From Bacteroidota bacterium (lineage in GTDB: Bacteria > Bacteroidota > Bacteroidia > Chitinophagales > Saprospiraceae), in NCBI GenBank assembly GCA_030147525.1, contig JASBVF010000057.1:1-51489 (forward strand): 51,489 nucleotides of DNA. The letters are read 5' to 3'. The stretch's first letter is position 1; each line of letters opens with the position of its first letter. The translations under genes and the position numbers were made by a program. Positions 19,852 to 43,649 of this stretch are shown one piece after another. Under the pieces are notes generated by a model. It did not search any database, was not told the origin of the DNA, and saw only the letters and a list, made by a program, of their open reading frames with translations.

Positions 19852-19875
19852 TTCAATCCTTCAATCCTTCAATCC
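19852..19875 (+). repeat. Octamer array (TTCAATCC x3) just before a start codon
   Basis: Three perfect head-to-tail copies of TTCAATCC, with a partial copy before, end six bases before the ATG at 19881. A closely related octamer is repeated inside the same gene at 20054-20077. Confidence 0.9.
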
Positions 19876-19880
19876 AAATC

Positions 19881-20738
19881 ATGACCGTTGAGCAATTTTT
19901 CGACCTCTTTTTTGAAGAATTAAAAACCCGTGATAAGCTTAGGGAATACTACAAATTTCATGACGATGCTGCCAAGTTACCCTTCCGAAAGGCCTACTTC
20001 TGCCAGCGGTTGCAATATGTTTTCGATCAGATTCAATCCACCCGACCACTCGGCCTCCAATCCTCCAATCCTCCAATCCTTCCATCCCTGAACATCTGGG
20101 ATTGCGGTTGCGGCTACGCTACCACGCAAATCTTTCTCGCCCTGAACGGCATTCCCACTCGGGGTACCACGCTTGAGTTTTATTTTAAAGAAATCCCTTC
20201 CCGCCTCGATTATTGGTCAAAATATGGCGACATGAGCCTCGTCAAGGTGAGTTACGAGGATGTTTTCGCCACGGAAGTCAGAGAAAACTCCGAGGACTTC
20301 ATCATCGTACAGGACACACTGCACCACCTCGAACCCCTTCAGGACAGCCTCTCCATTTTTTACCGGACGCTTCGCCCCGGCGGAAAACTGATTGCCATCG
20401 AAGAGAACGGCAACAACCTCATCCAGCGGATGAAGCTCTACAAATACCGGGGCAGCAACCGCATCATCGAGTACTACGATGAAGGCCTGGGCCGCAAAGT
20501 GATGATGGGCAACGAAAACATCCGGCCCTACGCTACCTGGCGGGCCGAGTTCATCAAAGCCGGCTTCGAAATGGAGGAAGACAACCTGAACTACGTCCGG
20601 CTGTTTCCTCCTAATTTTTTTCAAAGAAAAATGCCCGCACAAGTCGTGCAGCGAGAACAGGAGCTCTGGCAGAAGTACGGGCTGTTGCGGGAGTATTTTT
20701 TCTTCGGCGTCAACTTCGTGGCAGTTAAAGCTCCCTGA
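19881..20738 (+). CDS. SAM-dependent methyltransferase (class I)
   Basis: The 285-residue protein has a Rossmann methyltransferase core: motif I IWDCGCGYATT at about 72-82, an acidic segment after strand 2, IIVQDTLHHLEP (motif IV area) and LRPGGKLIAIEE (motif V/VI). The best resemblance is to small-molecule methyltransferases of the Methyltransf_11/12 type, with an N-terminal CheR-like helical region; the substrate is not known. ATG at 19881 is preferred, because the longer frame runs through an octamer array. Residues 58-66, just before motif I, are encoded by another octamer array, an apparent insertion. The last 14 bases overlap the convergent DUF1080 gene. Confidence 0.82.
   Translation: MTVEQFFDLFFEELKTRDKLREYYKFHDDAAKLPFRKAYFCQRLQYVFDQIQSTRPLGLQSSNPPILPSLNIWDCGCGYATTQIFLALNGIPTRGTTLEFYFKEIPSRLDYWSKYGDMSLVKVSYEDVFATEVRENSEDFIIVQDTLHHLEPLQDSLSIFYRTLRPGGKLIAIEENGNNLIQRMKLYKYRGSNRIIEYYDEGLGRKVMMGNENIRPYATWRAEFIKAGFEMEEDNLNYVRLFPPNFFQRKMPAQVVQREQELWQKYGLLREYFFFGVNFVAVKAP
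20054..20077 (+). repeat. Octamer array (CCTCCAAT x3) inside the methyltransferase gene
   Basis: Three perfect 8-bp copies lie within the coding frame, adding 24 bases (eight codons, serine/proline/asparagine-rich), so the frame is kept. The octamer differs by one base from the one in the gene's leader (TCCAATCC against TTCAATCC as rotated). Confidence 0.88.
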
Positions 20739-21483
20739 TCCAGATGTTTCGGTAGCTGACCTTCTCGCCGTGATCCTGCAACTGGATCGGGCCTTTTCCG
20801 TGAGCGATATTTTTGGGGAGCCCTCTGTACTCGGTCGTGCCCTTGATTTCCGTGTGGTGTTGAATCAACACGCCGTTGTGGAGCACCGTGATGAAGCCGG
20901 GCACTACTTTCATCCCATCGGCATTGAACTTTGGAGCCGTGTAAATGATGTCGTAAGTCTGCCATTCGCCTGCAGGGCGGCAGGCATTGACCAGGGGCAT
21001 GGATTGTTTGTAAATAGCCCCGGCCTGACCGTTGGAGTAAGTCGTGCCGCCGTGGCTGTCGAGTACCTGCACTTCGTAGCGGTTTTGGAGAAAAATACCG
21101 CTGTTTCCCCGGTTTTGGCCTTCGTCCATGTCGTCGGCAGGCGCACGCCATTCGATATGCAATTGGCAATCGCCAAAAGTTTTTTTGGTGAAAATACCGC
21201 CCGTGCCCTTTACGACCGTCATGGCGCCGTCTTTCACTTCCCATTTTACCGGAGTACCGTCCTGATGCGTCCACTCCGCCGTGTTTTTACCGTCAAAAAG
21301 CACGGTGGCATCCGAAGGTGCGGCCGTTCCGGCTCCTGGCGTGACCATTCGGGGAGCAGGTTCCCATACTTCCGTGAGCCGGGGATCCCATTCTTCGGAA
21401 GCTTTTGGCTGGGCGATTTGACCGATGACCAAACGCTGTACAGCCAGGGTGATGAAGAGGATGAAGAAAAATTCTTTTTTCAT
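20725..21483 (-). CDS. DUF1080 (3-keto-disaccharide hydrolase domain) exported protein
   Basis: The 252-residue protein carries a signal peptide (MKKEFFFILFITLAVQRLVIGQ in two parts: basic start, hydrophobic core) and a single DUF1080 concanavalin-like domain: LFDGKNTAEW, VKWEVKDGAMTVVKGTG, GNSGIFLQNRYEVQVLDS and EYRGLPKNIA. Related domains act on 3-keto sugars or bind glycans; activity here is inferred from the family only. A much longer open frame exists upstream, but ATG at 21483 begins the signal peptide. The 3' end overlaps the methyltransferase gene by 14 bases on the other strand. Confidence 0.9.
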   Translation of the reverse strand: MKKEFFFILFITLAVQRLVIGQIAQPKASEEWDPRLTEVWEPAPRMVTPGAGTAAPSDATVLFDGKNTAEWTHQDGTPVKWEVKDGAMTVVKGTGGIFTKKTFGDCQLHIEWRAPADDMDEGQNRGNSGIFLQNRYEVQVLDSHGGTTYSNGQAGAIYKQSMPLVNACRPAGEWQTYDIIYTAPKFNADGMKVVPGFITVLHNGVLIQHHTEIKGTTEYRGLPKNIAHGKGPIQLQDHGEKVSYRNIWIREL

Positions 21484-21756
21484 GATTATTAGATTTAAAG
21501 GTGAGGTGGTCGCCGGGGCAGGTGCAATTTTAATGAAAATGAAATTCAAGTTTTGAATTGAAGTGGTTTTCAAATCTAAAATTAATCTCAAAAAGTCCCG
21601 GTGTGAGCCTTGAGCATGACCGCTGGCACACTCTCGATCGATCCCTGCAAAACATATCTGTCCGTCACCGGGAAAGCTGAAAACCTGAACCCCGACATTG
21701 TCGGACACCCAGGAAACACGCTGGTTTTCACCAAAAAATAAAGCCGGAAACCAATA

Positions 21757-21796
21757 AAAAATGCCCGCTTTGCGAAGTTGCGAAGCGGGCATTTTT
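21757..21796 (-). terminator. Intrinsic terminator, bidirectional form
   Basis: Perfect 14-bp stem AAAAATGCCCGCTT (21757-21770) / AAGCGGGCATTTTT (21783-21796), with T runs on both strands because the stem itself ends in A and T tracts. It lies 17 bases past the stop of the lipoprotein gene. Confidence 0.9.
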
Positions 21797-21812
21797 GTTG
21801 GTTGAAATCCGG

Positions 21813-22223
21813 TCACTGCTTCATTCTGAATTCCATTGTGTTTTTTTCGGCGGGAGGCAGGTGGATGGTTATTCTGTAATAGCCAGGCTCCAGCCAGGTC
21901 CCATGAGGCGCAGAGTCCGTACCGCAAACTCCCTGACAGGCGGAGGCTGTAAAATGCCGTTTACCGTTGATCGTACCAACAGCCTCGACGAGTGCATAGC
22001 CAAACTGCTGGCCCAGCGTTTCAAAACGGTAATATTCGCCTGTGGTTTTGCCCTTGCCCAGGTCGCCGATGTTTGCCCGGCTGACGACGAGGCCCTCGAT
22101 ATTTTCGCCGGTTTTGTTTTCAAATTTCACCATGACGGCGTCCGGGGTGGGCAGGTCAACGGCTGCCTCGCCGCAGGCAGCGAAAAAAAACGGGAGGAGT
22201 AGCAGGTACAGTAATTTTTTCAT
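21813..22223 (-). CDS. Small lipoprotein of unknown function
   Basis: The 136-residue protein begins MKKLLYLLLLPFFFAAC, a lipoprotein signal with a FAAC lipobox and lipidated Cys17. The mature part has a beta-sandwich look (VKFENKTGENIEGLVVS, YRFETLG, YYRITIHLPP) and two cysteines in ACQGVCGTDS. I do not recognise the family. ATG at 22223 is chosen because it starts the signal peptide. Confidence 0.8.
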   Translation of the reverse strand: MKKLLYLLLLPFFFAACGEAAVDLPTPDAVMVKFENKTGENIEGLVVSRANIGDLGKGKTTGEYYRFETLGQQFGYALVEAVGTINGKRHFTASACQGVCGTDSAPHGTWLEPGYYRITIHLPPAEKNTMEFRMKQ

Positions 22224-22342
22224 AATCATATTTTTATTCCGGTTAAACGCCCCGCACACTCAATGGTGCGCCGGCCACCCCGCATTTAACGCAAAAACCG
22301 GGCACAGTGTCTTCACCTTGACATTGTCACGCCGCTGGCCCT

Positions 22343-23293
22343 CTATGAAAACAACTCACCCAGCATTTTCAAATCCACGTTGCCTCCGGAAATGATGATG
22401 CCGACCCGTTTGCCCTGAAATGGTTCTTTTTCTTTCAAAACAGCAGCCAGAGGCACGGCGCAAGATGGTTCGGCCACGATTTTCATCCGCTCCATCAGCA
22501 GGCGCAGGGCTTCGATGATTTCCCGTTCTTCGACCCGAATGATTTTTTCAACAAAATCACGGATCAGCGGAAAAGTTTTGTCGCCCAGCGAGGTGCGCAG
22601 CCCGTCGGCGATGGTCTGCGGGTTGGTTTGCGGAATGAGTTGCCCGGCCTGTTTGGACTGCCAGGCATCGTCAGCGCCGAAGGGTTCGCCCGCCATTACT
22701 TTTGTTTTGGGTGAAAAAAAGCGGGCCGCCAAAGCCGTTCCTCCGATCAGTCCGCCGCCGCCGACGGGGGCCAACAGGAAGTCAAGCCCGGTCACATCTT
22801 CCAGTAATTCCAGCGCTGCCGTACCCTGTCCGAGGATGACCTCCTCCTGATTGTAGGGGTGAAGGAAGGTCGCACCGGTACGCTCAACGACCGCTTGCAG
22901 GGTGTCCTCCCGTGCCTGAAGGGTCGGCACACATTCGATGATTTCGCCGCCGTAGTCCCGCACGGCGGCCTTTTTTACTGCCGGCGAATTGGACGGCATG
23001 ACGATGTAGGCTTTCACTCCGAGCATCTTCGCCGAAAGGGCCAGCGCCTGGGCAAAGTTGCCGGAGGAATGCGTCGCCACGCCTTTGCTCCGGGCTTCAT
23101 CGCTCAGGCAGAGGATGGCGTTGGCTGCTCCCCGCATTTTGAAAGCTCCCATTTTCTGAAAGTTGTCACATTTAAAAAACAGCTCCGCCCCGGCCATCCG
23201 GTTCAGGGTTTCACTGGTCATCACCGGCGTTCGGTGGATGTAGGGCTGAATGCGCCGGTGAGTTTCGAGAAGGGATTCTTTTGTGTAGGGCAT
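22343..23293 (-). CDS. Threonine/serine dehydratase-like PLP enzyme (or serine racemase)
   Basis: The 316-residue fold-type II PLP enzyme has the Schiff-base lysine Lys52 in GAFKMRGAAN, the substrate loop SSGNFAQA, the phosphate-binding GGGGLIGG and a C-terminal SGGN. It lacks the ACT-type regulatory domain of biosynthetic IlvA, so it fits catabolic threonine/serine dehydratase or serine racemase, which cannot be told apart by eye. ATG at 23293 is used; a longer frame would translate a heptamer repeat array. Confidence 0.88.
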   Translation of the reverse strand: MPYTKESLLETHRRIQPYIHRTPVMTSETLNRMAGAELFFKCDNFQKMGAFKMRGAANAILCLSDEARSKGVATHSSGNFAQALALSAKMLGVKAYIVMPSNSPAVKKAAVRDYGGEIIECVPTLQAREDTLQAVVERTGATFLHPYNQEEVILGQGTAALELLEDVTGLDFLLAPVGGGGLIGGTALAARFFSPKTKVMAGEPFGADDAWQSKQAGQLIPQTNPQTIADGLRTSLGDKTFPLIRDFVEKIIRVEEREIIEALRLLMERMKIVAEPSCAVPLAAVLKEKEPFQGKRVGIIISGGNVDLKMLGELFS

Positions 23294-23306
23294 TTCTTTT
23301 TGTTTA

Positions 23307-23341
23307 AATGTAGAATGTAGGATTTCCAATGTAGAATGTAG
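23307..23341 (-). repeat. Heptamer array before the dehydratase start
   Basis: Five 7-bp units, AATGTAG twice, a diverged unit, then AATGTAG twice, end 14 bases before the start codon (minus reading). It is the only array of the group with a 7-bp period. Confidence 0.85.
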
Positions 23342-23385
23342 AAGAACTGCATAGACTCGCAGCTTCTGCATTTTAAAAAATCAAT

Positions 23386-24318
23386 TCACCATCCGATGTG
23401 AAACAACGCATCCCCGATCCCCACGACCGGATTGTTGTTGTGGCCAATGATGTGGCTATCCTTCGTGGCAACGACGGGGATTTCATCCTGTCCGTAGGGA
23501 TCATTGATCATGGCGAGTTGTTCGCCGGTTTTCACCTCGTCACCTGATTTTTTGATCCAGCGAAAAATGCCGGGACGGGAAGCCCGCAACCAGGTCCGGG
23601 TTTTGATCGGGATGCTGCCGCCGCTTGCGGGAGGCGCTTCAGATAACATTCCGTTAGCATGCAGCAACCGCTGAACACCTGCCAGCCCCTGATCGATGGA
23701 AAGTCCGTCGAAGCGCAGGTTTTCACCTCCTTCAAAAACAATGATAGGCTTGCCGGCGGACAGCGCTGTTTTGCGCAGCGACTTCGCAATGGGTTTGACG
23801 GCAATAGAAAATGGAGCACCAAAAGACTGCGCCAATTCGCTGCTTCGACTATCGCCGGTGGTGTAGCGTATTTGCGGAAAATTGTAATTGTTGTTGCCGC
23901 CGGTATGAAAATCCACGCCGAAGTCGATGAGCGGGAGGATTTTTTTAGTAAAAACATACGCCACCCTCGAGGCCATCGAGCCTTTGGCGGAGCCGGGAAA
24001 ACTCCGGTTCACGTCCTTACCATCGGGCACATCCCGGCTGAAATTGTTGAAGCCGTAAACGTTGAGCAGCGGAATGGCAATGACCGAGCCACGTTCAAGC
24101 TTCTCCAACATCCGGCCGGCGATGGTCCGTCGGACGATTTCAACGCTGTTAATTTCATCGCCGTGAACGCCGGCCATCAGCAGTACGACAGGCCCCGGTT
24201 CGGTGCTCCGGTAGATATGCACGTTCAGGTAAATGCGGGTATCGGACGGCAAACGCCCGACCGGCAGCCGGATGAGTTGATTCTGACCTGGTTCGATGGT
24301 GGTATTTTGAATATTCAT
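23386..24318 (-). CDS. Succinylglutamate desuccinylase/aspartoacylase-family protein
   Basis: The 310-residue M14-related amidohydrolase has HGDE (52-55, His52 and Glu55 as zinc ligands), DVNRSFPG (102-109), His138 in DFHTG and the catalytic Glu196 in FEGGEN. The C-terminal part (after about 225) looks like the usual beta barrel that caps this family. The ATG overlaps the stop of the RimK-like gene (ATGA), so the two are translationally coupled. In this pairing it may trim residues added by RimK; that is inference. Confidence 0.88.
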   Translation of the reverse strand: MNIQNTTIEPGQNQLIRLPVGRLPSDTRIYLNVHIYRSTEPGPVVLLMAGVHGDEINSVEIVRRTIAGRMLEKLERGSVIAIPLLNVYGFNNFSRDVPDGKDVNRSFPGSAKGSMASRVAYVFTKKILPLIDFGVDFHTGGNNNYNFPQIRYTTGDSRSSELAQSFGAPFSIAVKPIAKSLRKTALSAGKPIIVFEGGENLRFDGLSIDQGLAGVQRLLHANGMLSEAPPASGGSIPIKTRTWLRASRPGIFRWIKKSGDEVKTGEQLAMINDPYGQDEIPVVATKDSHIIGHNNNPVVGIGDALFHIGW

Positions 24319-25214
24319 CTTCTTGATTTTGTGAAACGCTCCAACCCATGCTCCACATTTTCGATGATAGCGCCGGCAATATCTACGCCGGTGGTCGTTT
24401 CGATGCCTTCAAGGCCGGGCGATGCGTTAACTTCCATGACCAGCGGGCCCCGGCGTGAGCGAAGCAGGTCCACACCTGCTATTTCGAGCCCCATCAGGCG
24501 GGCGGCTTTCAGTACGATTTTTTCTTCTTCTTCTGTCAAAAACTCAAGCGTAGCCTCAGCGCCCCGGTGCAGGTTGGATCGGAATTCGCCTTCTGAGGCC
24601 TGCCGTTTCATGGAAGCCACCACCCGGCGGCCCACCACGAAAGCCCGAATGTCGGCGCCTTCTGCTTCCCGGATGAATTCCTGCAGAATGACGGGCTGAT
24701 TGAGTTTGAAAAACGTTTCCGCCAGAGCAATGGCTGCGTTACGGCTTTCGGCCAGAATGACCCCTACCCCGTGGGTGCTTTCCAGCAGCTTGATGACTAC
24801 GGGCGCACCGCCCATCCGGTCGATGAGGAAGGGCACATCCTCAGGCGCACCGGCGATGAAAGTACGGGGGACGTTGATGCCTTCGGCGGAGAGTTTCTGC
24901 AGGCATTTGAGTTTATCACGGGCCATCAGCAGCGCTTCGGAGCGGGTGGCGGTGTAAATGCCCATGAGCTCACACTGCCGAATGACGGCGGCGCCGTAAT
25001 CTGTCACCGAGGCACCGATACGTGGGATCATGGCGTCCATGCCGATGAGGTGTACGCCCTCGTAGATGATCTGTGGAATTCCCTGCTCGATGACGATGTT
25101 GCATCGTTGGTGGTCGATGACCCGCACGTAGTGCCCCCGCCTCCGGGCAGCCCGGAAGAGACTCTGCGTAGAGTAAAGGGCGGCGCCCCGTGAAAGTATG
25201 GCGAGGTTGAGCAT
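24315..25214 (-). CDS. rimK: RimK-like ATP-grasp ligase
   Basis: The 299-residue protein is a full-length RimK homologue (N-terminal MLNLAILSRGAALYSTQSL, IPRIGASVTDYGAAV, the ATP-grasp core VVIKLLESTHGVGV, MKRQASEGEFRSNLHRGG-like loop written here as EFRSNLHRGAE, and VMEVNASPGLEGIE for metal binding). RimK adds glutamates to the C-terminus of ribosomal protein S6; related enzymes ligate amino acids to other acceptors. It is the first gene of the two-gene operon. The octamer array at 25215-25270 touches its start codon. Confidence 0.9.
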   Translation of the reverse strand: MLNLAILSRGAALYSTQSLFRAARRRGHYVRVIDHQRCNIVIEQGIPQIIYEGVHLIGMDAMIPRIGASVTDYGAAVIRQCELMGIYTATRSEALLMARDKLKCLQKLSAEGINVPRTFIAGAPEDVPFLIDRMGGAPVVIKLLESTHGVGVILAESRNAAIALAETFFKLNQPVILQEFIREAEGADIRAFVVGRRVVASMKRQASEGEFRSNLHRGAEATLEFLTEEEEKIVLKAARLMGLEIAGVDLLRSRRGPLVMEVNASPGLEGIETTTGVDIAGAIIENVEHGLERFTKSRR

Positions 25215-25270
25215 GGGTTGATGGTTGGATGGTTTTGGGGTTTTGTGGTTTTAGGGTTTTAGGGTTTTAT
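25215..25270. repeat. Seven-copy octamer array (GGTTTTNN) at the rimK start
   Basis: Seven units of exactly 8 bp begin at the base next to the rimK ATG. Five have GGTTTT as the first six bases (endings GG, GT, AG, AG, AT); the two nearest the gene are GGGTTGAT and GGTTGGAT. The same unit, in opposite orientation, forms the array at 27698-27751. Confidence 0.9.
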
Positions 25271-25399
25271 GTGGGGGATTTTTGTCCGGGTTTCTTGCGC
25301 CAAACAAACAAAAAAAATCCGGAAAACTTAAAATTCTTTTAACCGGAGCCCGGTGACGAACCCGGAAATCCTTCTAACTTTCCGCAAAATGAAAAATTC

Positions 25400-26698: not shown

Positions 26699-26792
26699 GG
26701 AAGTATCCAGTCAGGCAATACAGCAGAAAAATCTCAGTTATTTTGATAAAAAAAGCTAACCTCCGAACTCTCAAAACCGCAAACCACTTCAC

Positions 26793-27677
26793 ATGCAAGT
26801 AGTCGTATTTTCACAATACCTCAAAGACGGCGATTTACCACACGTTCAACATCTTTTCGATGCGCTGACGGAGTTCGGCATTGCAGCCTATGTTTACTCG
26901 CCTTACCTCGAAGCGCTTCAGGGCAAAGTAAAATTCAAAACCAACGTCGGAAAATTTGAAGGCTACCTGGACTTCCGGGTGCGGAAATTCGATTTCGTCA
27001 TTACGCTGGGCGGTGACGGTACCATCCTGGCCGCTACGACGCACATCCGGGACCGGGAGGTGCCGATTCTGGGTGTTAACCTCGGACGGCTTGGTTTTCT
27101 GGCTACCGTCAGCAAAGACCGTATCCGGGAAGCAATAGGGCTGCTGGTGAAAGGACAATTTTCCATCGGCAACCGGAGCACCCTTTTTCTTGAGTCAAGT
27201 CCGCAGTTATTTGGCGCCATGCCGTTTGCACTGAATGATTTCACCATTCTGAAACGGGACACTTCCTCCATGATTACCATTCATGCCTTTGTCAATGGGG
27301 CTTACCTGAATACCTACTGGGCCGACGGTCTCATTTTATCTACACCGACCGGCTCAACGGGCTACTCGCTGAGCTGCGGAGGGCCCATCGTTTTCCCGGA
27401 TTCCAACAACTTCGTACTAACGCCGGTAGCGCCGCATAATCTCAATGTGCGGCCGCTCGTAATTTCCGATAATTCTGTTATTTCATTTGAGGTGGAGGGC
27501 CGTACCGAAAATTTCCTCTGCACACTCGACTCCCGCTACGAGATCATCACTTCTGAAAATAAAATTGCCGTGCGACGGGGTGATTTTTATGTTAAAATGG
27601 TACACCTGCTGGACATCGATTTTCTCGATACCATCCGGAATAAACTGACCTGGGGCGTGGATCAGCGGAACCACTAA
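26793..27677 (+). CDS. nadK: NAD kinase
   Basis: The 294-residue enzyme phosphorylates NAD to NADP. The signatures are GGDGT (73-77), VNLGRLGFL (95-103) and TPTGSTGYSLSCGGPI (NAD pocket), and the length is normal. The bases just before the start (26770-26785, TCAAAACC-like units) look like a decayed version of the octamers found elsewhere. A GGTTTT-type octamer array lies 20 bases after the stop. Confidence 0.95.
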   Translation: MQVVVFSQYLKDGDLPHVQHLFDALTEFGIAAYVYSPYLEALQGKVKFKTNVGKFEGYLDFRVRKFDFVITLGGDGTILAATTHIRDREVPILGVNLGRLGFLATVSKDRIREAIGLLVKGQFSIGNRSTLFLESSPQLFGAMPFALNDFTILKRDTSSMITIHAFVNGAYLNTYWADGLILSTPTGSTGYSLSCGGPIVFPDSNNFVLTPVAPHNLNVRPLVISDNSVISFEVEGRTENFLCTLDSRYEIITSENKIAVRRGDFYVKMVHLLDIDFLDTIRNKLTWGVDQRNH

Positions 27678-27697
27678 GCAAAGCCACACCCTGTTCC

Positions 27698-27751
27698 ATA
27701 AAACCCCAAAACCAAAAACCTCAAAACCTCAAAACCCAAAACCATAAAACC
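27698..27751. repeat. Octamer array (GGTTTTNN, minus strand) between convergent genes
   Basis: Read on plus, the units are ATAAAACC, CCAAAACC, AAAAACC, TCAAAACC, TCAAAACC, CAAAACC and ATAAAACC: five of 8 bp and two of 7 bp. It ends seven bases from the stop of the BamA-like gene and 20 bases from the nadK stop. It is the same motif as 25215-25270, inverted. Confidence 0.9.
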
Positions 27752-27758
27752 CCTCACG

Positions 27759-29273: not shown

Positions 29274-29333
29274 CTGGATGCGAAGTTAAGGCGCTGCCGG
29301 GAGTTTTATTAAGTCAGCCCGGCGTACAAAGAT

Positions 29334-29341
29334 TATCTTTG
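29334..29341 (+). promoter_or_regulatory. Bacteroidota -7 promoter box for the aminotransferase gene
   Basis: TATCTTTG is a perfect TAnnTTTG match 15 bases before the ATG at 29357, which implies a very short leader. The -33 position is only T-rich. Because this box includes the TTG at 29339, that codon is unlikely to be the translation start. Confidence 0.5.
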
Positions 29342-29356
29342 CTAAAAAAAAGATCC

Positions 29357-34109: not shown

Positions 34110-34192
34110 GTCTGTATTATTGTAGTTTGTGTTTAAAAACGGCGAAGAAAAGGAAATGCAGGGAACACACCAAATCTAACCGCCCATGCTGT

Positions 34193-36040: not shown

Positions 36041-36198
36041 AAATTTTAAGTTTATAAAGCGGCCGGGGCCTCAGTCAAAATTCAAAAATCGAAACCAGCC
36101 TTTAAAACTTGACCATATTTTTTTGATCAAACTATCCACCCGCACGCAGGTTTTGTAATTTAGCTTTTTAAAAAAAAACAAAAATACCGCTCAAAAAT

Positions 36199-36678
36199 AT
36201 GACAGATTTTCAAACGCTACCGGCCAGCACCCGTGTCTGGATTTACCAGTCCAACCGCCCTTTCAAGGCCGAAGAAGTACCCCAACTGAAAGAATACGTC
36301 GATCGATTCGCTCAAAACTGGGTCAGCCACAACAGGGCGTTGCGTGCCCACGGCGATGTGCTGCACAACCAGTTCGTCGTGCTGATGGTCGATGAAAGCC
36401 AGGCGGATGCCAGCGGCTGCTCGATCGACAAAAGCGTGCACTTCCTCAAACAAATTGAACAGGCTTACGGCGTCGATTTGTTCGACCGCATGACCTTTAC
36501 CTGGATGGACGGCGACACCGTCCGCTCGGCTGACAGCGCCGAATTCGCCCGCCTCTACCAGGAAGGTAAAATTACCGGCGAAACCCTCGTTTTCGATAAT
36601 TTAGTCAAAACAAAAGGCGAGTTGGAAGAAAAGTGGCTCAAGCCGTTGAACGAAAGCTGGCACAGAAGATTTTTGTAA
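36199..36678 (+). CDS. Conserved Bacteroidota protein (often mislabelled ABC transporter ATPase)
   Basis: The 159-residue protein has no Walker motifs, so the common label 'ABC transporter ATPase' is not supported. It carries the conserved VWIYQSNRPF, FVVLMVDESQADASGCSIDKSV (in two parts) and LFDRMTF. It is cytoplasmic and of unknown function. The stop codon is followed two bases later by an inverted octamer array that leads to the next gene, so the two are probably cotranscribed. Confidence 0.75.
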   Translation: MTDFQTLPASTRVWIYQSNRPFKAEEVPQLKEYVDRFAQNWVSHNRALRAHGDVLHNQFVVLMVDESQADASGCSIDKSVHFLKQIEQAYGVDLFDRMTFTWMDGDTVRSADSAEFARLYQEGKITGETLVFDNLVKTKGELEEKWLKPLNESWHRRFL

Positions 36679-36680
36679 AC

Positions 36681-36752
36681 TGGTGAATTAGTAAATTGGT
36701 TGGCCCTCACCTTACTAATTCACCAATTCACTACTTCACCAATTCACCAATT
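36681..36752 (+). repeat. Inverted octamer array forming a 14-bp hairpin between two genes
   Basis: TGGTGAATTAGTAA (36681-36694) and TTACTAATTCACCA (36712-36725) pair perfectly. The right side continues as octamers (TTCACCAA, TTCACTAC, TTCACCAA, TTCACCAA) to the base before the ATG at 36753. The left side is built from the complementary octamer (TGGTGAAT, TAGTAAAT). The whole intergenic region is this array. Confidence 0.9.
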
Positions 36753-37223: not shown

Positions 37224-37280
37224 GATAGTGCGTTACCCGGCCTGATAATTTGACTGCATGTTGTCCAATTCTTCACCCGG

Positions 37281-38531
37281 TCAAAGCCCCCGTCTTTTTA
37301 CCTCCTTCAGAATAAAGCTGAGTTCCCTGCTCATATCCCCCGTAATTGAAGTATTTTCCTGCGTACGGCGAATGAGGTAAGGAACGACATCTTTGACCTG
37401 ACCGTACACCACGTACTTGGCGACGTTGTAACCGGCAGCAGCAAGATTGAACGTAATGTTGTCACTCATACCGTAAAGCTGGCAAAACTGGAGATGGGGG
37501 TGATCTTTGGGGATATTCTTTTCAGCGATTAACTGAGCCATAATGCGGTTGCTTTCGGCGTTGTGAGAGGCATTGCAACAAGCAACTTTTTCATAATTGT
37601 CCACACAGAAGCGCAGAGCGAGGTTGTAGTCGTGATCAGTCGCTTCCTTATTCGGCTGAATGGGAGATGGATACCCCATTTCTTCCGCACGTTTGCGCTC
37701 TTTGTCCATGTAGGCGCCCCTGACGAGTTTGGCGCCAAGGAGGTAGCCTTCCTTCTGGGCCGTATCGTAGGATTCCATCAGGTAAGCCAGGCGATCCGTC
37801 CGGTAAAGCTGGAAGGTATTGTAAACAATTACCTTCTCCCGGTTGTATCGCTTCATCATCTGATTGGCCATTTTATCGATGGCCGGCTGAATCCAGGTTT
37901 CCTCAGCATCGATGTAAAGCCCGACATTTTTGTTGGCAGCATGGTGACTGATGCTGTCGACTCGTTTGAGGACGTTTTTGAATTCGTCTTTCTCCTGTTG
38001 GGTAAGCGATTCTCCGCTGCTCACTTTTGCCAGCAGATCAAACCTTGCCAACCCCGTTACTTTGGTACTGATGGTGGAGATGCCGGGATGTTGCGAAGCA
38101 AAATCAATTGCCCGCATATTTTCATTCATGGTGAAATTAAAATCCGCTTCGGACTCCTTTCCTTCCGCTCCGTAATCCAGCACGGAATGAACACCAAACT
38201 TGTGCAGCCGGTCAATGCTTTCCTTGGAATCGAGCAGGGTGGTACCGCCGCAGAATTGCTCGAAAATGGTATTTCGGACGATGGTGTCAAAAAATGGCAA
38301 CCGGAGATGAACCGCCTGCATAGCTAATTTGGAGCCGATGTTGACCAAAGTCGCATTGTTCATCATGCGGAAAAGCCAGGCGGCTTTTTTCAGTTCACTG
38401 TCCGATTTATCTACGAAAGCACGAGAGGTATCTGAAAAATCAACTGCCGGAGTATCTTCCGGAGCCCGGAAGGCATTGGCGTATTCTTCAAGTTTCTCAA
38501 AGTCTGGAACGGGTTTCCCTTCATTTTTCAT
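37281..38531 (-). CDS. Proline dehydrogenase
   Basis: The 416-residue flavoenzyme oxidises proline to pyrroline-5-carboxylate. The beta/alpha barrel is recognised by FSTK-like ISTKVTGLARFD, YIDAEETWIQPA, TFQLYRTDRL, AKLVRGAYMDKER and IRRTQENTSI, whose arginines bind the proline carboxylate. It is a monofunctional eukaryote-like form without the P5C dehydrogenase half found in PutA. The promoter appears to overlap the terminator of the upstream gene. Confidence 0.93.
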   Translation of the reverse strand: MKNEGKPVPDFEKLEEYANAFRAPEDTPAVDFSDTSRAFVDKSDSELKKAAWLFRMMNNATLVNIGSKLAMQAVHLRLPFFDTIVRNTIFEQFCGGTTLLDSKESIDRLHKFGVHSVLDYGAEGKESEADFNFTMNENMRAIDFASQHPGISTISTKVTGLARFDLLAKVSSGESLTQQEKDEFKNVLKRVDSISHHAANKNVGLYIDAEETWIQPAIDKMANQMMKRYNREKVIVYNTFQLYRTDRLAYLMESYDTAQKEGYLLGAKLVRGAYMDKERKRAEEMGYPSPIQPNKEATDHDYNLALRFCVDNYEKVACCNASHNAESNRIMAQLIAEKNIPKDHPHLQFCQLYGMSDNITFNLAAAGYNVAKYVVYGQVKDVVPYLIRRTQENTSITGDMSRELSFILKEVKRRGL

Positions 38532-38653
38532 AATGTCGTTCTTTTTGGTTGTGGCCAGGGCAAGTTAAGCCGTTAGTTTTAATTGATCAGACTGCTTGCA
38601 GGTTTTTTAGAATTGATATTCGTCATCGCCCGTGCAAGCTCCTGATTTTGCTG

Positions 38654-38661
38654 CAAAAATA
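38654..38661 (-). promoter_or_regulatory. Putative -7 box of the proline dehydrogenase gene
   Basis: TATTTTTG on the minus strand (plus CAAAAATA) matches TAnnTTTG, about 125 bases before the start codon. It shares bases with the T run of the terminator at 38654-38693. No -33 TTTG is seen at the usual spacing. Confidence 0.4.
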
Positions 38662-38693
38662 AAACCGGGAAGCAACATTTGTTACTTCCCGGT
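38654..38693 (-). terminator. Intrinsic terminator of the DUF2723 gene
   Basis: Stem ACCGGGAAG (38664-38672) / CTTCCCGGT (38685-38693), extended by four more pairs past one mismatch, then a T-rich run on the minus strand (TTTTATTTTTG). It lies 101 bases after the DUF2723 stop, beyond the octamer hairpin. Confidence 0.87.
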
Positions 38694-38706
38694 CAAGAGT
38701 ATTTGG

Positions 38707-38788
38707 GTGTTTGTGTTTTTGGGTGTTTGAGTGTTTGTGAGAAACCTCGTAAACACACAAACACTCAAACACACAAGAACACAAACAC
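38707..38788. repeat. Inverted octamer array forming a 35-bp hairpin
   Basis: The left arm (38707-38741) is octamers GTGTTTGT, GTTTTTGG, GTGTTTGA, GTGTTTGT. The right arm (38754-38788) is its complement with 32 of 35 positions matching, and a 12-base loop lies between. It sits between the DUF2723 stop codon (five bases away) and that gene's terminator, so it would be part of the 3' mRNA end. Confidence 0.93.
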
Positions 38789-38793
38789 TCCTA

Positions 38794-41700
38794 CTATTTA
38801 TACGGCGCAAACATATTTTCCAGTTCCTGCTTGTAGGCCTCATCCTTCTGGCTATCGACGGCCCGGATGATCAGATCCTTCACATTCATGGCCAGCTGGT
38901 AATCCTGCTCGAAGTCGCCGTTGTCGGTGATGAGCTTTGGATTGGAGACATAGAAAGCCAGGTTCGCCGCTGTTTCTTTAGCCAAAATATCCAGGTGCGG
39001 CTTGGCTTTGTCGTAGCCGCCCGCTTGCACCATCACGTTGAGCATCTGCATGGTGTTCCAGTCGTAAGGGAAGTTAAAATGCGGGAATGCCTCCAGGTAC
39101 TTCTCCACCAAAGCAATGGCTTTGTCATTCTGGCCTTTGTCAGTCAACCTTCTCGCCGTGCGGAGAATAACCACCCGGATACTCTGAACACTTGGCCCGT
39201 AGCTGCGGTCGATGAAGGTTTCGTGCGTATCGAAATTACCCCACCGGAATTTATTCATCACGTTGTCGTACACCTTGTCAGTGTCCACCCGGCCGTAGCC
39301 GTAAACGTACAGCCCCTGCTCGCTCTGCGATTTCACAGGAATGATGCGCAGGCCAAGCCCTTCGAGCTGCATGTAATCCTGCAGACCCATCATTTTCTCA
39401 GGGCGGCAGGTGACGGCAAAGTAAACCGGACGGTCGTTGATGTTGGATGCAATCACATCCATGATGGCCAGTTCGTCCTTTGTGATGTAGGAAACGTCCT
39501 GCTGACCGGTACGGTGAAGCGGAGCTTTCATCGGAATCCGGTCGAGGATTGGAAGGCTGTCAGCCGGGTTCAGGTTGAAAGTTTCAGCAGCTTTTGATAC
39601 ATCAACCGGCATGTAAAGATTTGCTGCAGGCAACACCGCATCAATCCGGCTGCCTCTCGAGGGACGATCGACTGCTACTGCTTCGAGTGCTTTCGTGGCT
39701 TCCATTTCCCCCTTATCCTGTGTGGCGATGTAGTAAACTGCGTTGCGCTTTTTACCCCGGTAAGCCTCTGCCGGAATCGTCAGTTTGATGGGCGGCGAAT
39801 CGTTGACCTTGCGCCGCAGCAGGTTGATGTACCAATCTACCTGGATGAGCGAAAGGTTGACCACCCTCACGTCACGGCGAATGTTTTCCACCTCCTGGGC
39901 ATACCAGAGCGGGTAGGTATCGTTGTCACCGTAGGTGAAAATGATGGCGTTGGGTTCACAGGAATTCAGGAAGTTGGCAGCGTAGTCACGAGCGCCGTAG
40001 TGCCCGGCACGACTGTGGTCGTCCCAGTTTTCGGAGCCCATGATTGCCGGTGCGGTCAATGCGAGCAGCACACCAAGCGAGGCGGCGCCGACACCACCGA
40101 TTTTATCTTTTAACCAGTTGTAAATAAACAGAGCGCCCATGCCGATCCAGATGCAGAAAGTGAAGAACGAACCGACGAGTACGTAATCCCGTTCACGTGG
40201 CTCGTTAGGCGGCTGGTTAGAATAGATGATGATACCAATTCCCGTGATGACGAACAGCGCCATCAAGGCTATGGCATCCTCAGAACGTTTTTTAAAGTGA
40301 AATACCAGTCCCAGAATACCGAAAATGAACGGCAGGAAATAGTAATGGTTCCTGGCTTTGTCATTCGCAAGGGTATCGGGCAGTTTATCCATGTTGTAGA
40401 GCCGGGCTTCGTCGATGAATTTTACACCTGACTCCCAGTGTCCGCTTTTTTTATCCCAGGAATAGTAGCCCTGATCACCGTTTTGGCGACCAATAAAATT
40501 CCAGGCAAAATACCGCCAATACATCCAGCCTAACTGGTAGCGGAAAAGGAATTTGATATTATCCCCAAAAGTGGGAGTACCTGCGGGTTTGTCGATCCAG
40601 GCCCGGTATTTTTCAGGCCGGTTCTGCGAGTCGTCTCCCATACGGGGGAAGAGTTGTTTGTCGCCGGGGCTGAATTCGTAGGAAATTTTTTCATCTACGA
40701 CCTCGTAGCGCTCCTGTCCATCAACAACGACCTGGCCGTAACGCTCTTCAATTTTGTTGCCGGTAGGCTGCGCCTCGAAATTCGGGCCGTAGAGCAGTGG
40801 CCGTTCGCCGTATTGCTCCCGGTTCACATAAGAAAGCAGGCGGATCGGGTCAGAAGGCTTGTTCATGTTGATCGGCGGGTCAACTTTCGCCCTCACGATG
40901 ATGACGCCGATGGTTGAGAAACCGACAACCGCCATCAGACCACTCACGAAAAGCATCTGAATGACTTTGTTGCTTTTTTGGTGCGCATAACGCAAACCGA
41001 AGAAGAAAACCGCTGCCACGATAAGCAATGTCGGCAACAAACCGGAGTTGAACGGCAAACCGAAACCGTTGACTGTCATCAATTCCATTGCTTTCCACAG
41101 CTTCGCAATTCCCGTGATGACGAGCGTCTGAATGGCGATGATGAAAGCCACGCCAATACCAGCCGCAGCCAACATGCCCCACACGGTGTGTCTGCCGTGG
41201 TATTTTTTAAAGTAATAAAACAAGGCCAAGGCCGGAAACGTCAGCAAACTCAGCAAGTGAACGCCGATGGACAGTGCCGCAGCGTAAACCGTGAAGACCA
41301 GCCAGCGGTCGTTGTAAGGCGTGTCCGGCAGGTAATACCATTTGATCATCGACCACATGGTGAGGCAGGTGAAAAATGTAGACATGGCATACACCTCGCC
41401 TTCTACCGCTGAAAACCAGACGGAAGAAGCGAATGTCATGGCCAAACCAGCCACCAGACCGGCCCCTGCCAGGGCAATATTTTGACTGCTGTCTGTTTCC
41501 TCATCTCTTCCAACGAGCGACAGTTTGCCCAAAATCATGGTGATCCAAGCCAGAAACATGGCCCCGAAAGCAGTGCAGACGCCCGACATGACGTTGACGG
41601 CGAAAGCGATATTTTCAGGGTTCGCCTGCGTATCCGAGAAAATTTCAGCAAACCAGATAAACAACCGGCCCACGATCATGAAAAGCGGGGCTCCCGGCGG

Positions 41701-41850
41701 GTGCACGACCTCCATTTTGTAAGCGCCGAGAATAAATTCGCCGCAGTCCCAAAGGCTGCCTGTGGGTTCAGCCGTAAGGTAATAAACCGAGGCAGCGATG
41801 GCAAAAACCAGGCAGCCGGTTATGTTGGTGATGGATTTGAAGGAATTCAT
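38794..41850 (-). CDS. DUF2723 polytopic membrane protein (putative glycosyltransferase-type)
   Basis: The 1018-residue protein begins with the DUF2723 signature: SVYYLTAEPTGSLWDCGEF, KMEVVHPPGAPLFMIVGRLF, SAVEGEVYAMS. About ten membrane segments in the first half and more near 560-640 are followed by a large soluble C-terminal part (FTYGDNDTYPLWYAQEVENI) with TPR-like helices at the end. The fold is related to GT-C glycosyltransferases, which use lipid-linked sugar donors, and this family is nearly confined to Bacteroidota. A role in surface glycosylation is an inference. The gene has its own promoter box and terminator. Confidence 0.9.
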   Translation of the reverse strand: MNSFKSITNITGCLVFAIAASVYYLTAEPTGSLWDCGEFILGAYKMEVVHPPGAPLFMIVGRLFIWFAEIFSDTQANPENIAFAVNVMSGVCTAFGAMFLAWITMILGKLSLVGRDEETDSSQNIALAGAGLVAGLAMTFASSVWFSAVEGEVYAMSTFFTCLTMWSMIKWYYLPDTPYNDRWLVFTVYAAALSIGVHLLSLLTFPALALFYYFKKYHGRHTVWGMLAAAGIGVAFIIAIQTLVITGIAKLWKAMELMTVNGFGLPFNSGLLPTLLIVAAVFFFGLRYAHQKSNKVIQMLFVSGLMAVVGFSTIGVIIVRAKVDPPINMNKPSDPIRLLSYVNREQYGERPLLYGPNFEAQPTGNKIEERYGQVVVDGQERYEVVDEKISYEFSPGDKQLFPRMGDDSQNRPEKYRAWIDKPAGTPTFGDNIKFLFRYQLGWMYWRYFAWNFIGRQNGDQGYYSWDKKSGHWESGVKFIDEARLYNMDKLPDTLANDKARNHYYFLPFIFGILGLVFHFKKRSEDAIALMALFVITGIGIIIYSNQPPNEPRERDYVLVGSFFTFCIWIGMGALFIYNWLKDKIGGVGAASLGVLLALTAPAIMGSENWDDHSRAGHYGARDYAANFLNSCEPNAIIFTYGDNDTYPLWYAQEVENIRRDVRVVNLSLIQVDWYINLLRRKVNDSPPIKLTIPAEAYRGKKRNAVYYIATQDKGEMEATKALEAVAVDRPSRGSRIDAVLPAANLYMPVDVSKAAETFNLNPADSLPILDRIPMKAPLHRTGQQDVSYITKDELAIMDVIASNINDRPVYFAVTCRPEKMMGLQDYMQLEGLGLRIIPVKSQSEQGLYVYGYGRVDTDKVYDNVMNKFRWGNFDTHETFIDRSYGPSVQSIRVVILRTARRLTDKGQNDKAIALVEKYLEAFPHFNFPYDWNTMQMLNVMVQAGGYDKAKPHLDILAKETAANLAFYVSNPKLITDNGDFEQDYQLAMNVKDLIIRAVDSQKDEAYKQELENMFAPYK

Positions 41851-41971
41851 TGAATCGTGATGATTTTTATTGCAAGTCCTGAACGCCTGGATTGAATGGG
41901 TAAAATTTTGATTGTCAAACTTTTAGGGTAAAACGCTTCGCTTCGCAGGCGCCCTTTGATTTCAAGAGACG

Positions 41972-41979
41972 CAAAAGTA
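41972..41979 (-). promoter_or_regulatory. Putative -7 box of the DUF2723 gene
   Basis: TACTTTTG (plus CAAAAGTA) is a perfect TAnnTTTG match on the minus strand, preceded by an eight-base T run. It implies a leader of about 115 bases before the ATG at 41850. No TTTG is found at the -33 position. Confidence 0.45.
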
Positions 41980-42005
41980 AAAAAAATTCGTTGGGCCGTA
42001 TGCAG

Positions 42006-42046
42006 TCAAAATCCTGCAGGTGTATCAGGCACTTACAGGATTTTGA
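42006..42046. repeat. 41-base hairpin (18-bp stem) between two genes
   Basis: TCAAAATCCTGCAGGTGT (42006-42023), loop ATCAG, and 42029-42046 form an 18-bp stem with one mismatch and two G-U pairs. It lies 138 bases past the anti-sigma stop and just upstream of the DUF2723 promoter box. There is no T run, so it is not a clear terminator. A smaller hairpin (ACGGTG/CACCGT) follows near 42060. The rest of 41851-42183 holds no gene. Confidence 0.75.
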
Positions 42047-42183
42047 TCCGGCAATTGATACGGTGGGTTTTACACCGTTGTTTCGGTTGGGTTCAAAAAG
42101 GTGGGCGGAAAATTAAGGAGCATTGCATCGCTATCCTTTCGGTGAAATGACATCAGGTGGTGAAAATCGGCAGGTTGAACGTA

Positions 42184-42837
42184 TCAATTCAACGTCTCCC
42201 AAAAAAGCCACAAATTTCTGACCCGATCGCCCGGCTTTTTACCGGCGTCATCAGCCTCACGAGGATATCCGGACAAGCTGTCCGACCTTCCAACAAATCT
42301 GGCGGAAGAATCCGCCATCGTTTCCAGTGTATTCAATGATGAATCAATATCGTAAGCAGGTTTTACATTTAGCCTGCCGGAAGGCACGTTTGCTGCTGTA
42401 TCCATCCCCGGTAGTGATACTTCCTTGTAAATAGTATCCGTCACATATACATAGACTTTTTCCGTTCTCACCCCTGTCAGCGGCGTATGTCCGGCCCAAA
42501 AGAAAAAGCCCAAAACCGCTGCCACTGCTGCCGCCGCCTGCCAGACAGGTAGCCGGTAGTTCAGCATTTTAACTAACAGACTGCCAGACAAAACCGAAGC
42601 CTCCTGTGCAAGTGGTTTTTGCCTGCGCAATGCCGTCAGCAGGTTCTGCCGGATGGCAGGATCGGGAAGGGGGTTGTTTTTCAGCGCTTTTTTACTCTGA
42701 CAAATAAGCTGGTGCATACCCCGATATTCGTCTTCGTTCATCGTTTCGAGCACCAGGTTTTGCTCCTCAAAACTCAGCGCTTCGAACGATTTTTCTGCCA
42801 GGAGGCATTCCAGTTTTTTATTGGATAAAATATTCAT
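42184..42837 (-). CDS. Putative membrane anti-sigma factor
   Basis: The 217-residue protein starts MNILSNKKLECLLAEKSFEAL and has a cytoplasmic N-terminal part of about 96 residues, one membrane segment (97-115, VWQAAAAVAAVLGFFFWAG) and a periplasmic tail of about 100 residues. It follows the ECF sigma gene on the same strand, the usual place for an anti-sigma factor; no HxxxCxxC zinc motif is present. The longer frame reads into an inverted repeat, so ATG at 42837 is used. The function is inferred from topology and position. Confidence 0.68.
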   Translation of the reverse strand: MNILSNKKLECLLAEKSFEALSFEEQNLVLETMNEDEYRGMHQLICQSKKALKNNPLPDPAIRQNLLTALRRQKPLAQEASVLSGSLLVKMLNYRLPVWQAAAAVAAVLGFFFWAGHTPLTGVRTEKVYVYVTDTIYKEVSLPGMDTAANVPSGRLNVKPAYDIDSSLNTLETMADSSARFVGRSDSLSGYPREADDAGKKPGDRVRNLWLFWETLN

Positions 42838-42854
42838 TGTCAGATATTTTTGCT

Positions 42855-42925
42855 CCCACAGATGCCGCAGATTTTCGCAGATGTTTATCGAAAAATGATC
42901 TGCGAAAATCTGCGCCATCTGCGGG
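42855..42925 (-). repeat. 28-bp imperfect inverted repeat between sigma and anti-sigma genes
   Basis: The arms at 42855-42882 and 42898-42925 match at 26 of 28 positions around a 15-base loop; the core is ATCTGCGAAAATCTGCG. It fills the whole gap between the sigma stop (42933) and the anti-sigma start (42837). It resembles a dispersed genomic repeat and would form a strong intercistronic stem. Confidence 0.9.
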
Positions 42926-42932
42926 AAAACAT

Positions 42933-43556
42933 TTACACCAGCGCCCCGGCAAAAGCCCGGAGTTTACCGGCCAGTTTTTTTAGCGTATAAAACAGCCTTG
43001 ATTTCACCGTCCCTTCCGGGCAGTCAATGATTTCGGCGATTTCCCTGATGCTTAGTTCCTGCTGGTAACGCAGCACAAAACACTGCCGCTGCACTTCGTC
43101 CAGGGTATCAAGCGCTTGGTTGAGTTGTTGCTCAAACAGCTCATTATCAAGTTCTTCAGAAAAATTTTCGGAAAAGGATTCCCGGAATTGCGGCGACTCC
43201 GGAATTCTTGAAATCCGGCGATACTCATTTTTGACCATATTCCCAGCCACGGTGTAAAGCCAGGTAGAAAAGCGGCGGCCGGGATCGTAGAGCGCCCGTT
43301 TTTCAATCAGTTTTAAAAAAAGTTCCTGCGTAAAATCATCCGCCCGGTGCGTATTCCGGCCCAGCATCCGGTAAAAATAGCGGTGCATACGACTGCCGTA
43401 ACGGTCGTAAAGCTCGCCAAAGGATTCCTCACAGCCTTCGGCAATGCGGCGCATCAGCGCTTCGTCGGATGTGTTTTTCGAATTTGACAAAGAGTTTTGA
43501 ATTAATATATCATCAGTTTTTACACCGCCCGATTTGCAAGGTTCAAATTTTTTCAT
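42933..43556 (-). CDS. ECF-type RNA polymerase sigma factor
   Basis: The 207-residue protein has sigma region 2 (SFGELYDRYGSRMHRYFYRM, DDFTQELFLKLIEKR, FSTWLYTVAGNMV) and region 4 (LDEVQRQCFVLRYQQELSI, IAEIIDCPEGTVKSRLFYTL). The N-terminus carries about 30 extra residues before the usual SDEALMRRI; the first ATG stands only three bases from a terminator hairpin, so the true start may be later (for example ATG at 43454). It likely directs a regulon held in check by the downstream membrane protein. Its signal cannot be told from the sequence. Confidence 0.9.
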   Translation of the reverse strand: MKKFEPCKSGGVKTDDILIQNSLSNSKNTSDEALMRRIAEGCEESFGELYDRYGSRMHRYFYRMLGRNTHRADDFTQELFLKLIEKRALYDPGRRFSTWLYTVAGNMVKNEYRRISRIPESPQFRESFSENFSEELDNELFEQQLNQALDTLDEVQRQCFVLRYQQELSIREIAEIIDCPEGTVKSRLFYTLKKLAGKLRAFAGALV

Positions 43557-43559
43557 AAA

Positions 43560-43596
43560 AAAATGCCCGGTCAGCCTTTCGCCAACCGGGCATTTT
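43560..43596 (-). terminator. Intrinsic terminator of the peptidase/propeller gene
   Basis: Perfect 12-bp stem AAAATGCCCGGT (43560-43571) / ACCGGGCATTTT (43585-43596), followed on the minus strand by a T run. It abuts the sigma factor ATG (43554-43556). Confidence 0.92.
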
Positions 43597-43609
43597 CTGT
43601 GCCCTGTGT

Positions 43610-43649
43610 CTACCGGCCTACTTGCCTACTGGCATACCGGCCTACTTCT
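43610..43649 (-). repeat. Octamer array between a stop codon and its terminator
   Basis: Five 8-bp units (CTACCGGC, CTACTTGC, CTACTGGC, ATACCGGC, CTACTTCT) end one base from the stop codon of the 1020-residue protein. The terminator starts 14 bases further on. Confidence 0.88.

Follow-up and report, generated by a model that had tools for sequence, protein, structure and literature searches.

Short tandem arrays stand at the edges of genes on contig JASBVF010000057.1 of a bacterium of the family Saprospiraceae, which we refer to as the window (51,489 nucleotides (nt); the entire contig C38 of a 59-contig genome of 7.08 Mb, designated G000). These local arrays belong to a genome-wide class with short degenerate units of 7 or 8 nt, less often of 9 or 10. 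The class is marked by its position at gene edges, by mirrored arms that form hairpins and by a G-rich strand that points outward from the neighboring gene. Judging from sequence comparisons, the arrays may be made by a process at the level of DNA, in which slippage is combined with fold-back copying and which would be confined to unconstrained DNA; we give this reading a probability of about one half.

Period and Range

Segments in which each base matches the base one period further on were collected from 51 stretches of G000 that had been chosen blind to repeats (980 kb with 625 intergenic gaps). Genes were called with a home-made hexamer-based caller, whose start positions are uncertain by tens of nt. 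The gaps held 38 heptamer and 56 octamer arrays, together with 1 hexamer, 6 nonamer and 4 decamer arrays. Counted as segments in the first 31 of these stretches (580 kb), period 7 occurs 31 times and period 8 39 times, followed by periods 6 (10), 9 (7) and 10 (4) with none at periods 5 and 11, and a Markov-1 copy gave 0 at period 7 and 1 at period 8. The genus was sampled with 14 genomes (G000 to G013). The gaps of 13 of them contain 100 arrays of period 7 and 95 of period 8, 14 and 15 of periods 9 and 10, 2 of period 6, 1 of period 12 and none of periods 5 and 11, while one Markov shuffle of the same gaps returned 1 at period 7, 0 at period 8 and 2 each at periods 5, 6, 9 and 12. The minor shoulder at 9 and 10 base pairs (bp) is strongest in G003 (7 and 5) and in G000 (6 and 4). 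Also in G003 (L072 18551-18974) there are long, almost perfect heptamer arrays, first of the GGGAGTA kind and then of TCATCCC, which appear much younger than the other arrays.

An earlier note on this DNA had proposed a mechanism that prefers 8 bp and gene boundaries, and had set it against an even spread of unit lengths with no link to gene ends. In our samples the lengths are sharply peaked, but at 7 and 8 alike, which leaves the reading unrefuted. The preference for gene boundaries stands; an octamer-only preference is ruled out, since heptamers are equally common in the 13-genome pool. Outside the genus, 60 kb from four other genera of the family yielded one heptamer, one decamer and no octamer array, and five other genera contributed 13.1 kb of gaps with 3 heptamer and 2 octamer arrays. 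Gaps totaling 9 kb at 30 family loci around proline dehydrogenase held 6 heptamer and 4 octamer arrays, and ten genomes from other families of the order (14.0 kb) gave 6 heptamer arrays and no octamer. Within the genus, G002 has no array in its 1.8 kb of gaps.

The window itself contains nine period-8 segments with a score of at least 14, eight of them in gaps, as compared with one such segment in a Markov-1 control of eleven times its length. All eight arrays pointed out earlier were found again at their positions, seven with period 8 and one (23307-23343) with period 7, and in seven cases a start or stop codon is close to one edge, the exception being 20054-20077 within the methyltransferase gene. 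The remark that the octamer differs at each locus did not hold up; unit families recur, such as AAGTAGGC (six times) and AATGAGTG (five times) in the sample of G000. Clear hairpins are present at two of the eight loci, 36678-36744 and 38707-38788. The elements are:

36678..36752, octamer hairpin AATTCACC, left arm G-rich and right arm C-rich; it fills the whole gap from a stop codon (ending at 36678) to the next ATG (36753), with the octamer array at 36714-36752; DNA fold z -4.7, 0 of 200 shuffles equally good
38699..38788, octamer hairpin with the GTGTTTGT unit, arms 38707-38741 and 38754-38788 (stem score 29); it lies between the end of the TMEM260-like gene (stop at 38794, 5 nt off) and the start of the proline dehydrogenase gene; DNA fold z -6.6, 0 of 200 shuffles equally good
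25213..25269, octamer array GGTTTTAG/GGTTTTGG/GGTTGGAT, adjoining the rimK start codon (25214, minus strand); the strand leading outward from rimK is the G-rich one; no clear partner arm, DNA fold z 0.66
27700..27751, octamer array AAAACCCC, lying between two stop codons, at a distance of 22 nt from one and of 7 nt from the other (27759); no partner arm
43610..43645, octamer array CTACTGGC/CTACCGGC, 5 nt from the stop at 43651; unit similar to the recurring GTAGGC family
19820..19875, octamer array ATCCTTCA at 19848-19875 with a partial inverted arm at 19820-19841; the array ends 5 nt ahead of the ATG at 19881; DNA fold z -1.5, 14 of 200 shuffles equally good
20038..20087, octamer array CCTCCAAT within the methyltransferase gene, in a linker variable in length and sequence among species
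23307..23343, imperfect heptamer array AATGTAG, with the likely PALP start (23293) 13 nt downstream; it would be coding if the PALP frame extends to 23371

Some of them flank genes of the housekeeping type, e.g., NAD kinase and proline dehydrogenase; phase-variation (contingency) repeats, which have near-identical units that differ among strains, switch surface genes. The genes to which we refer are:

19881..20738, plus strand, methyltransferase gene (PF08241) carrying the coding array; the caller put its start at TTG 19830, and orthologues align from ATG 19881
24315..25214, minus strand, RimK-like ATP-grasp gene
26793..27677, plus strand, NAD kinase gene
37281..38531, minus strand, proline dehydrogenase gene, an anchor of the orthologous comparison
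38794..41850, minus strand, TMEM260-like gene, the second anchor

A repeat unlike these arrays lies at 13848-14063 of the window, in the gap between a gene end at 13654 and a gene start near 14331-14358. Its 41-bp unit, which contains the short palindrome TTGCGAAAATCGCAA, is repeated in tandem about five times, the copies being 98% alike.

Position at Gene Edges

The earlier note had linked array positions to gene ends, and this link is borne out. Among 59 elements from the sample of G000 and the window, 69% begin or end no more than 8 nt from a gene end; random placement gives 44%, and the best of 2000 simulations reached 59%. The proportion within 8 nt of a gene edge is similarly high for array hairpins (73% of 75) as opposed to non-periodic hairpins (38% of 162). 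Several gaps are filled from edge to edge (L024 3552-3621, L018 13987-14102 and, in the window, 36678-36752). Called genes of the G000 sample, which is 88% coding, hold 14 heptamer and 4 octamer arrays with a score of at least 14, some of which may reflect start-site errors, compared to 32 and 49 in the gaps. Sorted by the direction of the flanking genes, 7- or 8-nt arrays are found in 9 of 68 divergent, 29 of 234 co-directional and 7 of 60 convergent gaps.

At the 3' edge the arrays may even reach into the gene. In 20 of 83 stop-abutting arrays the stop triplet is repeated exactly one period downstream (six other offsets gave 0 to 5 each), so that in these cases the stop codon is part of the array; the start triplet recurs in this manner in 0 of 40 arrays. 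Stop triplets are found in 167 of 224 units versus 143.5 expected, which brought to mind back-up stop codons in all frames. The excess is driven by TGA alone (122 vs 63 expected), with TAG (36 vs 62) and TAA (30 vs 41) depleted, and since arrays at 5' ends would be left unexplained as well, this idea was set aside. In other words, the G-oriented units carry TGA at double the expectation and are depleted in the listed triplets that contain TA.

Mirrored Arms and Polarity

For all arrays of periods 7 to 10 in the gaps of the genus (a pool of 224, from which the window and the stretches L003-L011, chosen by similarity to an array, were left out), we looked up to 120 nt away for an inverted partner with a score of at least 12. 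Such a partner accompanies 129 arrays, as opposed to 9 when the flanks are taken from a random other array, and 31 arrays have direct copies in their own flanks that reach the same score. The two arms share more than a unit. Across 65 hairpins the arm-to-arm match averages 23.0 in place, 18.8 after shuffling the order of the units and 17.1 after shuffling columns, and 55 of them lie above the mean of their own unit-order shuffle; this excess is somewhat inflated, because the hairpins entered through a stem search that favors good pairing.

A second uniform feature is the orientation. In 72 of 75 array hairpins the G-rich arm is on the 5' side, a statement that holds regardless of the strand from which it is made. 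When weakly periodic hairpins are included, G-left forms prevail in co-directional (57:2), convergent (19:1) and divergent gaps (12:0). The same rule can be worded from the gene: of 129 arrays within 12 nt of a gene end, 118 have the G-rich strand leading outward, be it at 3' ends (74:7) or at 5' ends (44:4), and gene direction is irrelevant. It is also seen in nearby arrays without any partner (28:7). Read in the C-rich orientation, the arrays consist of A 0.31, C 0.33, T 0.29 and G 0.07. Stems of the orthologous gaps, those of G000 included, comprise 24 G-left, 5 C-left and 1 even.

Replacement in Orthologous Gaps

The gaps that carry an array in G000 can be followed through its relatives. 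Between the TMEM260-like and proline dehydrogenase genes, six relatives (G001, G004, G006, G007, G008 and G011) have long and very stable stems that start inside the stop codon or no more than 5 nt beyond it, and the repeats of which they are built differ. Heptamers make up the stem in G006 (AGGGATG) and G001 (GAGGTAT), octamers in G008 (TGAGGGTT) and in both G007 and G011 (GGATTGAA), and a stem of the GGATTGGA kind in G004 stays below the array threshold. A near-perfect stem is found in G009 and a GC-rich cluster of another kind in G005; in G010 the synteny is absent. The leader ahead of the proline dehydrogenase ATG (CTAACC or similar) is still recognizable in most relatives. The gap between rhomboid1 and rhomboid2 is present in 14 of 14 genomes and passes the array threshold in 5 of the 13 others (G001, G006, G007, G009 and G011). 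Of the remainder, G010 has only a stem, G002, G004, G008 and G013 stay below threshold, and G003, G005 and G012 have short, plain gaps.

In two cases the same hairpin can be recognized in two species, and the changes are of unit size. The rhomboid hairpin is common to G001 and G013; in G013 one arm is shorter by 16 nt, or two octamers, and the hairpin falls below the thresholds. The trpG-trpD heptamer hairpin common to G000 and G007 is 7 nt longer in one genome than in the other. In G000 an octamer array takes up the methyltransferase linker, and relatives have different, shorter or longer linkers. The orthologue of this gene in G013 (L246/L248, G013:C281:1129-1924) appears as two matches, which points to either a broken gene or an assembly error.

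Other repeats were encountered in the relatives. G005 has clusters of small GC-rich hairpins joined by GTTTAG or GTTTA (L061 1075-1500 and L119), and in G003 a long GC hairpin past trpD (L125) is another repeat type, as in G005. Near-perfect, non-periodic palindromes with arms of about 40 bp lie past the NAD kinase stop in G010 (L116) and past trpD in G007 (L128).

How the Arrays May Arise

According to the reading we favor, a stalled or freed 3' end in a gap would slip on 7 to 8 nt of its own sequence. The same 3' end would fold back and copy itself, giving rise to the repeat and its mirror arm together, and further slippage and template switching would keep altering and re-perfecting the hairpin. 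Selection would then purge the product from coding sequence, such that arrays end at gene edges and sometimes supply the stop codon; into a protein linker that tolerates change the product could extend. As to the 7-8 step and the G-rich, C-poor outward strand, the polymerase or the fold-back primer, through some property of either, would be the first candidate. The process fits the symmetry, the edge position, the mirroring and the replacement of the arrays. We count for it the period peak over shuffled gaps, the excess of inverted partners over the swapped-flank control and a G-left rule independent of transcription, as well as the differing units at orthologous gaps, the unit-sized changes, the array-filled coding linker and the recurrence of the stop triplet. 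Of the two mechanisms that the earlier note had offered, replication slippage is in part retained; it agrees with the unit-sized insertions and deletions and leaves the inverted pairs and the polarity unexplained. An RNA-level mechanism is not favored, as array hairpins show no significant preference for any gap type.

A number of observations weigh against DNA-level copying in the form just described. Nine of the 65 hairpins lie below their shuffle mean and one equals it, that is, they are unmirrored. Polarity is weaker farther from gene edges (64:27, or 64 of 91), and it has exceptions in 3 of 75 hairpins of the sample and 5 of 30 stems from the orthologous gaps, of which four belong to the trp operon. 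Identical octamer units make up 3.0% of pairs within a genome, 1.0% between genomes and 0.2% when shuffled; units are shared to some extent inside a genome in addition to the vocabulary of the genus, a hint that one locus may be copied to another. In addition, surveys for transposase, reverse transcriptase and sbcD pick out no motor enzyme. As sbcD is above the cut-off in 11 of the 14 genomes, loss of the SbcCD hairpin nuclease was rejected as a general cause, a judgment made on sbcD alone, with sbcC not searched. No match to the reverse transcriptase domain PF00078 was found in the array-bearing genomes G003, G004, G008 and G012, and a reverse transcriptase as motor is accordingly not supported.

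Lastly, orthologous gaps are richer in arrays than background gaps, which could mean that the hairpin is selected. In eight gaps, selected for the presence of an array in G000, arrays are found in 22 of 51 gaps of other species versus 41 of 217 background co-directional gaps (p = 7e-4), and an array or stem in 29 of 51 versus 73 of 217 (p = 0.004). A few of the tested gaps are also among the 217 background gaps, because the stretches of the relatives were not blind (L070, L074, L076, L078, L080, L082, L086 and L087 have proline dehydrogenase at their center; L177, L178 and L180 contain trpD or rhomboid gaps). The count of 51 omits the NAD kinase gap, three sites (A, B and E) in the L007 operon, the proline dehydrogenase gap of G010 and twelve more rows in which a neighbor is missing or the gap exceeds 500 nt (nine for lysA, two for trpG-trpD and one for rhomboid2-EEP). 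The 3' gap of NAD kinase is non-syntenic; in the first 150 nt past the stop, inspected by eye, 1 of 10 other species (G003) has a clear array and G009 perhaps a short one, a result which we group with those against the reading or outside the counts. With the NAD kinase rows and the L007 sites A and B of two species added, the last four counted as bare, the enrichment falls to 23 of 65 (p = 0.007). In all, array positions recur moderately, not strictly.

This recurrence, along with the very stable stems that six relatives carry at or just past the stop codon in the proline dehydrogenase gap, is what speaks for hairpins as selected RNA elements, i.e., mRNA 3'-end protectors, insulators or spacers, for which any stable stem would suffice while its sequence drifts. 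The stems may have an RNA role, since positions recur above background. Still, we consider this account unlikely overall, since selection for pairing leaves the 7-8 period, the polarity and the single arrays unexplained, and the array hairpins show no significant preference for gene 3' ends. They occur in 49 of 652 co-directional, 15 of 168 convergent and 11 of 207 divergent gaps (p = 0.39), and divergent gaps are not significantly poorer in them than all others (11/207 vs 64/820). Non-periodic hairpins of the same gaps behave as terminators do, with 93 co-directional, 56 convergent and 8 divergent cases (p = 1.5e-14). A T-run on the exit side, on either strand, follows 7 of 75 array hairpins as opposed to 49 of 162 non-periodic ones, and as it is absent from the other 68 and there is no significant gap-type or 3'-end preference, intrinsic terminators were rejected. 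A search of Rfam that covered the whole window, and no other loci, gave 0 matches at the gathering score.

Rather than through the making of arrays, their orientation could come about through selection: C-rich RNA emerging first would recruit Rho, G-rich RNA ahead of a start would hinder initiation, and only the G-left, outward-G forms would survive. Rho prefers C-rich, G-poor RNA, the 30 nt upstream of starts are indeed G-poor in array-free gaps (G 0.127, C 0.234), and combined, the two rules yield the observed polarity. However, this takes two separate rules for one uniform pattern, and non-periodic hairpins of the same gaps, which are under equal RNA constraints, are only weakly biased to G-left (89:59; terminator-like ones 26:21). 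We find this explanation doubtful, to a slightly greater degree than that of RNA elements.

Different hairpins at one site with recognizable flanks, as in the proline dehydrogenase gap, might also be mobile hairpins akin to REP/REPIN elements or MITEs, which a Y1 transposase or some other enzyme would spread and which would replace one another at preferred sites. Unit families do recur within a genome, and Y1 domains are above the cut-off in 12 of the 14 genomes of the genus. The number of matches is 0 to 9 per genome, those of the array-bearing G004 being weak and partly broken by stops, and so few copies of the transposase speak against RAYT/REP. Moreover, from inspection of the lists, with no systematic test of ends or heads, members of a family appear to share unit vocabulary and not full-length sequence. 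Mobile elements are in our view an improbable source.

Another reading is a telomere-like addition of repeats to exposed 3' DNA ends between genes, whereby the outward strand of either flank would gain C-poor, G-rich local repeats of 7 to 8 nt, followed by copy-back and closure of the gap. We put this forward as a long shot. If it were true, the outward-G rule, shared with the heptamer arrays of Xanthomonas and Nostoc, would be what a single widespread end-repair activity of bacteria has left behind, and not due to G-quadruplexes or regulation. G-quadruplex elements, which have been considered for those heptamers with their equal polarity and closeness to genes (PMC4692102), are very improbable here, as among the 220 arrays whose G and C contents are unequal only 11 have four GGG tracts and units without GG keep the polarity in 50 of 59 cases (50:9). 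The polarity is hence detached from ideas on G-quadruplexes, and RNA 3'-end ideas are weakened. The orthologous gaps provide a set in which the making, replacing and mirroring of repeats can be followed. They also call for caution, in that such gaps can mimic conserved RNA hairpins though the sequence is replaced.

Comparison With Known Repeats

The heptamer repeats STRR and LSSR are examples of an excess of 7-nt units in bacterial genomes, and the comparison with cyanobacterial heptamers made in the earlier note is apt; we know of no octamer peak, inverted pairing or polarity for them. REP and REPIN are intergenic palindromes of many copies, and unlike these, the arms described here are tandem repeats and the families appear to share units, not full-length sequence. 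No report on octamer or hairpin repeats in Saprospiraceae or Bacteroidetes was among the literature matches listed, a search outside which most subscription journals lie. In the present genomes, the class has an octamer peak equal to that of heptamers, many units, mirror pairing and a polarity that persists without G-tracts.

Arrays of TAACTGA in Beggiatoaceae, Cyanobacteria and five Bacteroidetes are likewise short-unit arrays beside genes. They lie a few nt from start codons, some across gene ends, with long arrays in some Bacteroidetes and 7-nt insertions or deletions between Cyanothece strains (PMC4679880). They differ from our arrays in having one fixed heptamer, which in Maribeggiatoa mostly runs forward toward starts, with one inverted case in 170 sets (PMC4679880). 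A likeness in structure is offered by the P6b stem of the Nostoc tRNA-Leu intron. It consists of degenerate 7-nt repeats of one of two heptamer classes, with insertions or deletions of 7 or 14 nt, and one class has repeatedly been swapped for the other, for which replacement of the whole region was proposed, with the structure kept (PMC4476775). Stems of degenerate repeats and the replacement of one repeat class by another are found in our gaps as well, but P6b is a single locus in a self-splicing intron, whereas here many gaps between protein genes are involved, octamers occur too and there is no intron.

The closest kin are the heptamer repeats of Xanthomonas and Nostoc (PMC4692102). An excess of heptamers in bacterial genomes has been noted since 2007 with no agreement on the cause, and the GGGAATC and GGGGA(C/T)T arrays of these genera are intergenic and near genes, with the G-rich strand being the coding strand past stops and the non-coding strand before starts (PMC4692102). 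Some overlap the stop codon, and inverted repeats are mentioned; two related species have arrays mostly in the same gaps, changed in length and sequence, and the arrays have no general tie to mobile elements or surface genes (PMC4692102). Our arrays share with them the outward-G polarity, the proximity to genes, the overlap with stops and the excess of 7-nt units in gaps (100 as compared to 1 in the shuffle). In contrast to one family of G-tract heptamers per genome studied, there are many units here, of 7 and 8 nt alike, mostly without four GGG tracts and in more than half of the cases with an inverted partner. Furthermore, the Xanthomonas and Nostoc arrays are described as scarce between divergent genes, whereas ours are not significantly scarcer there.

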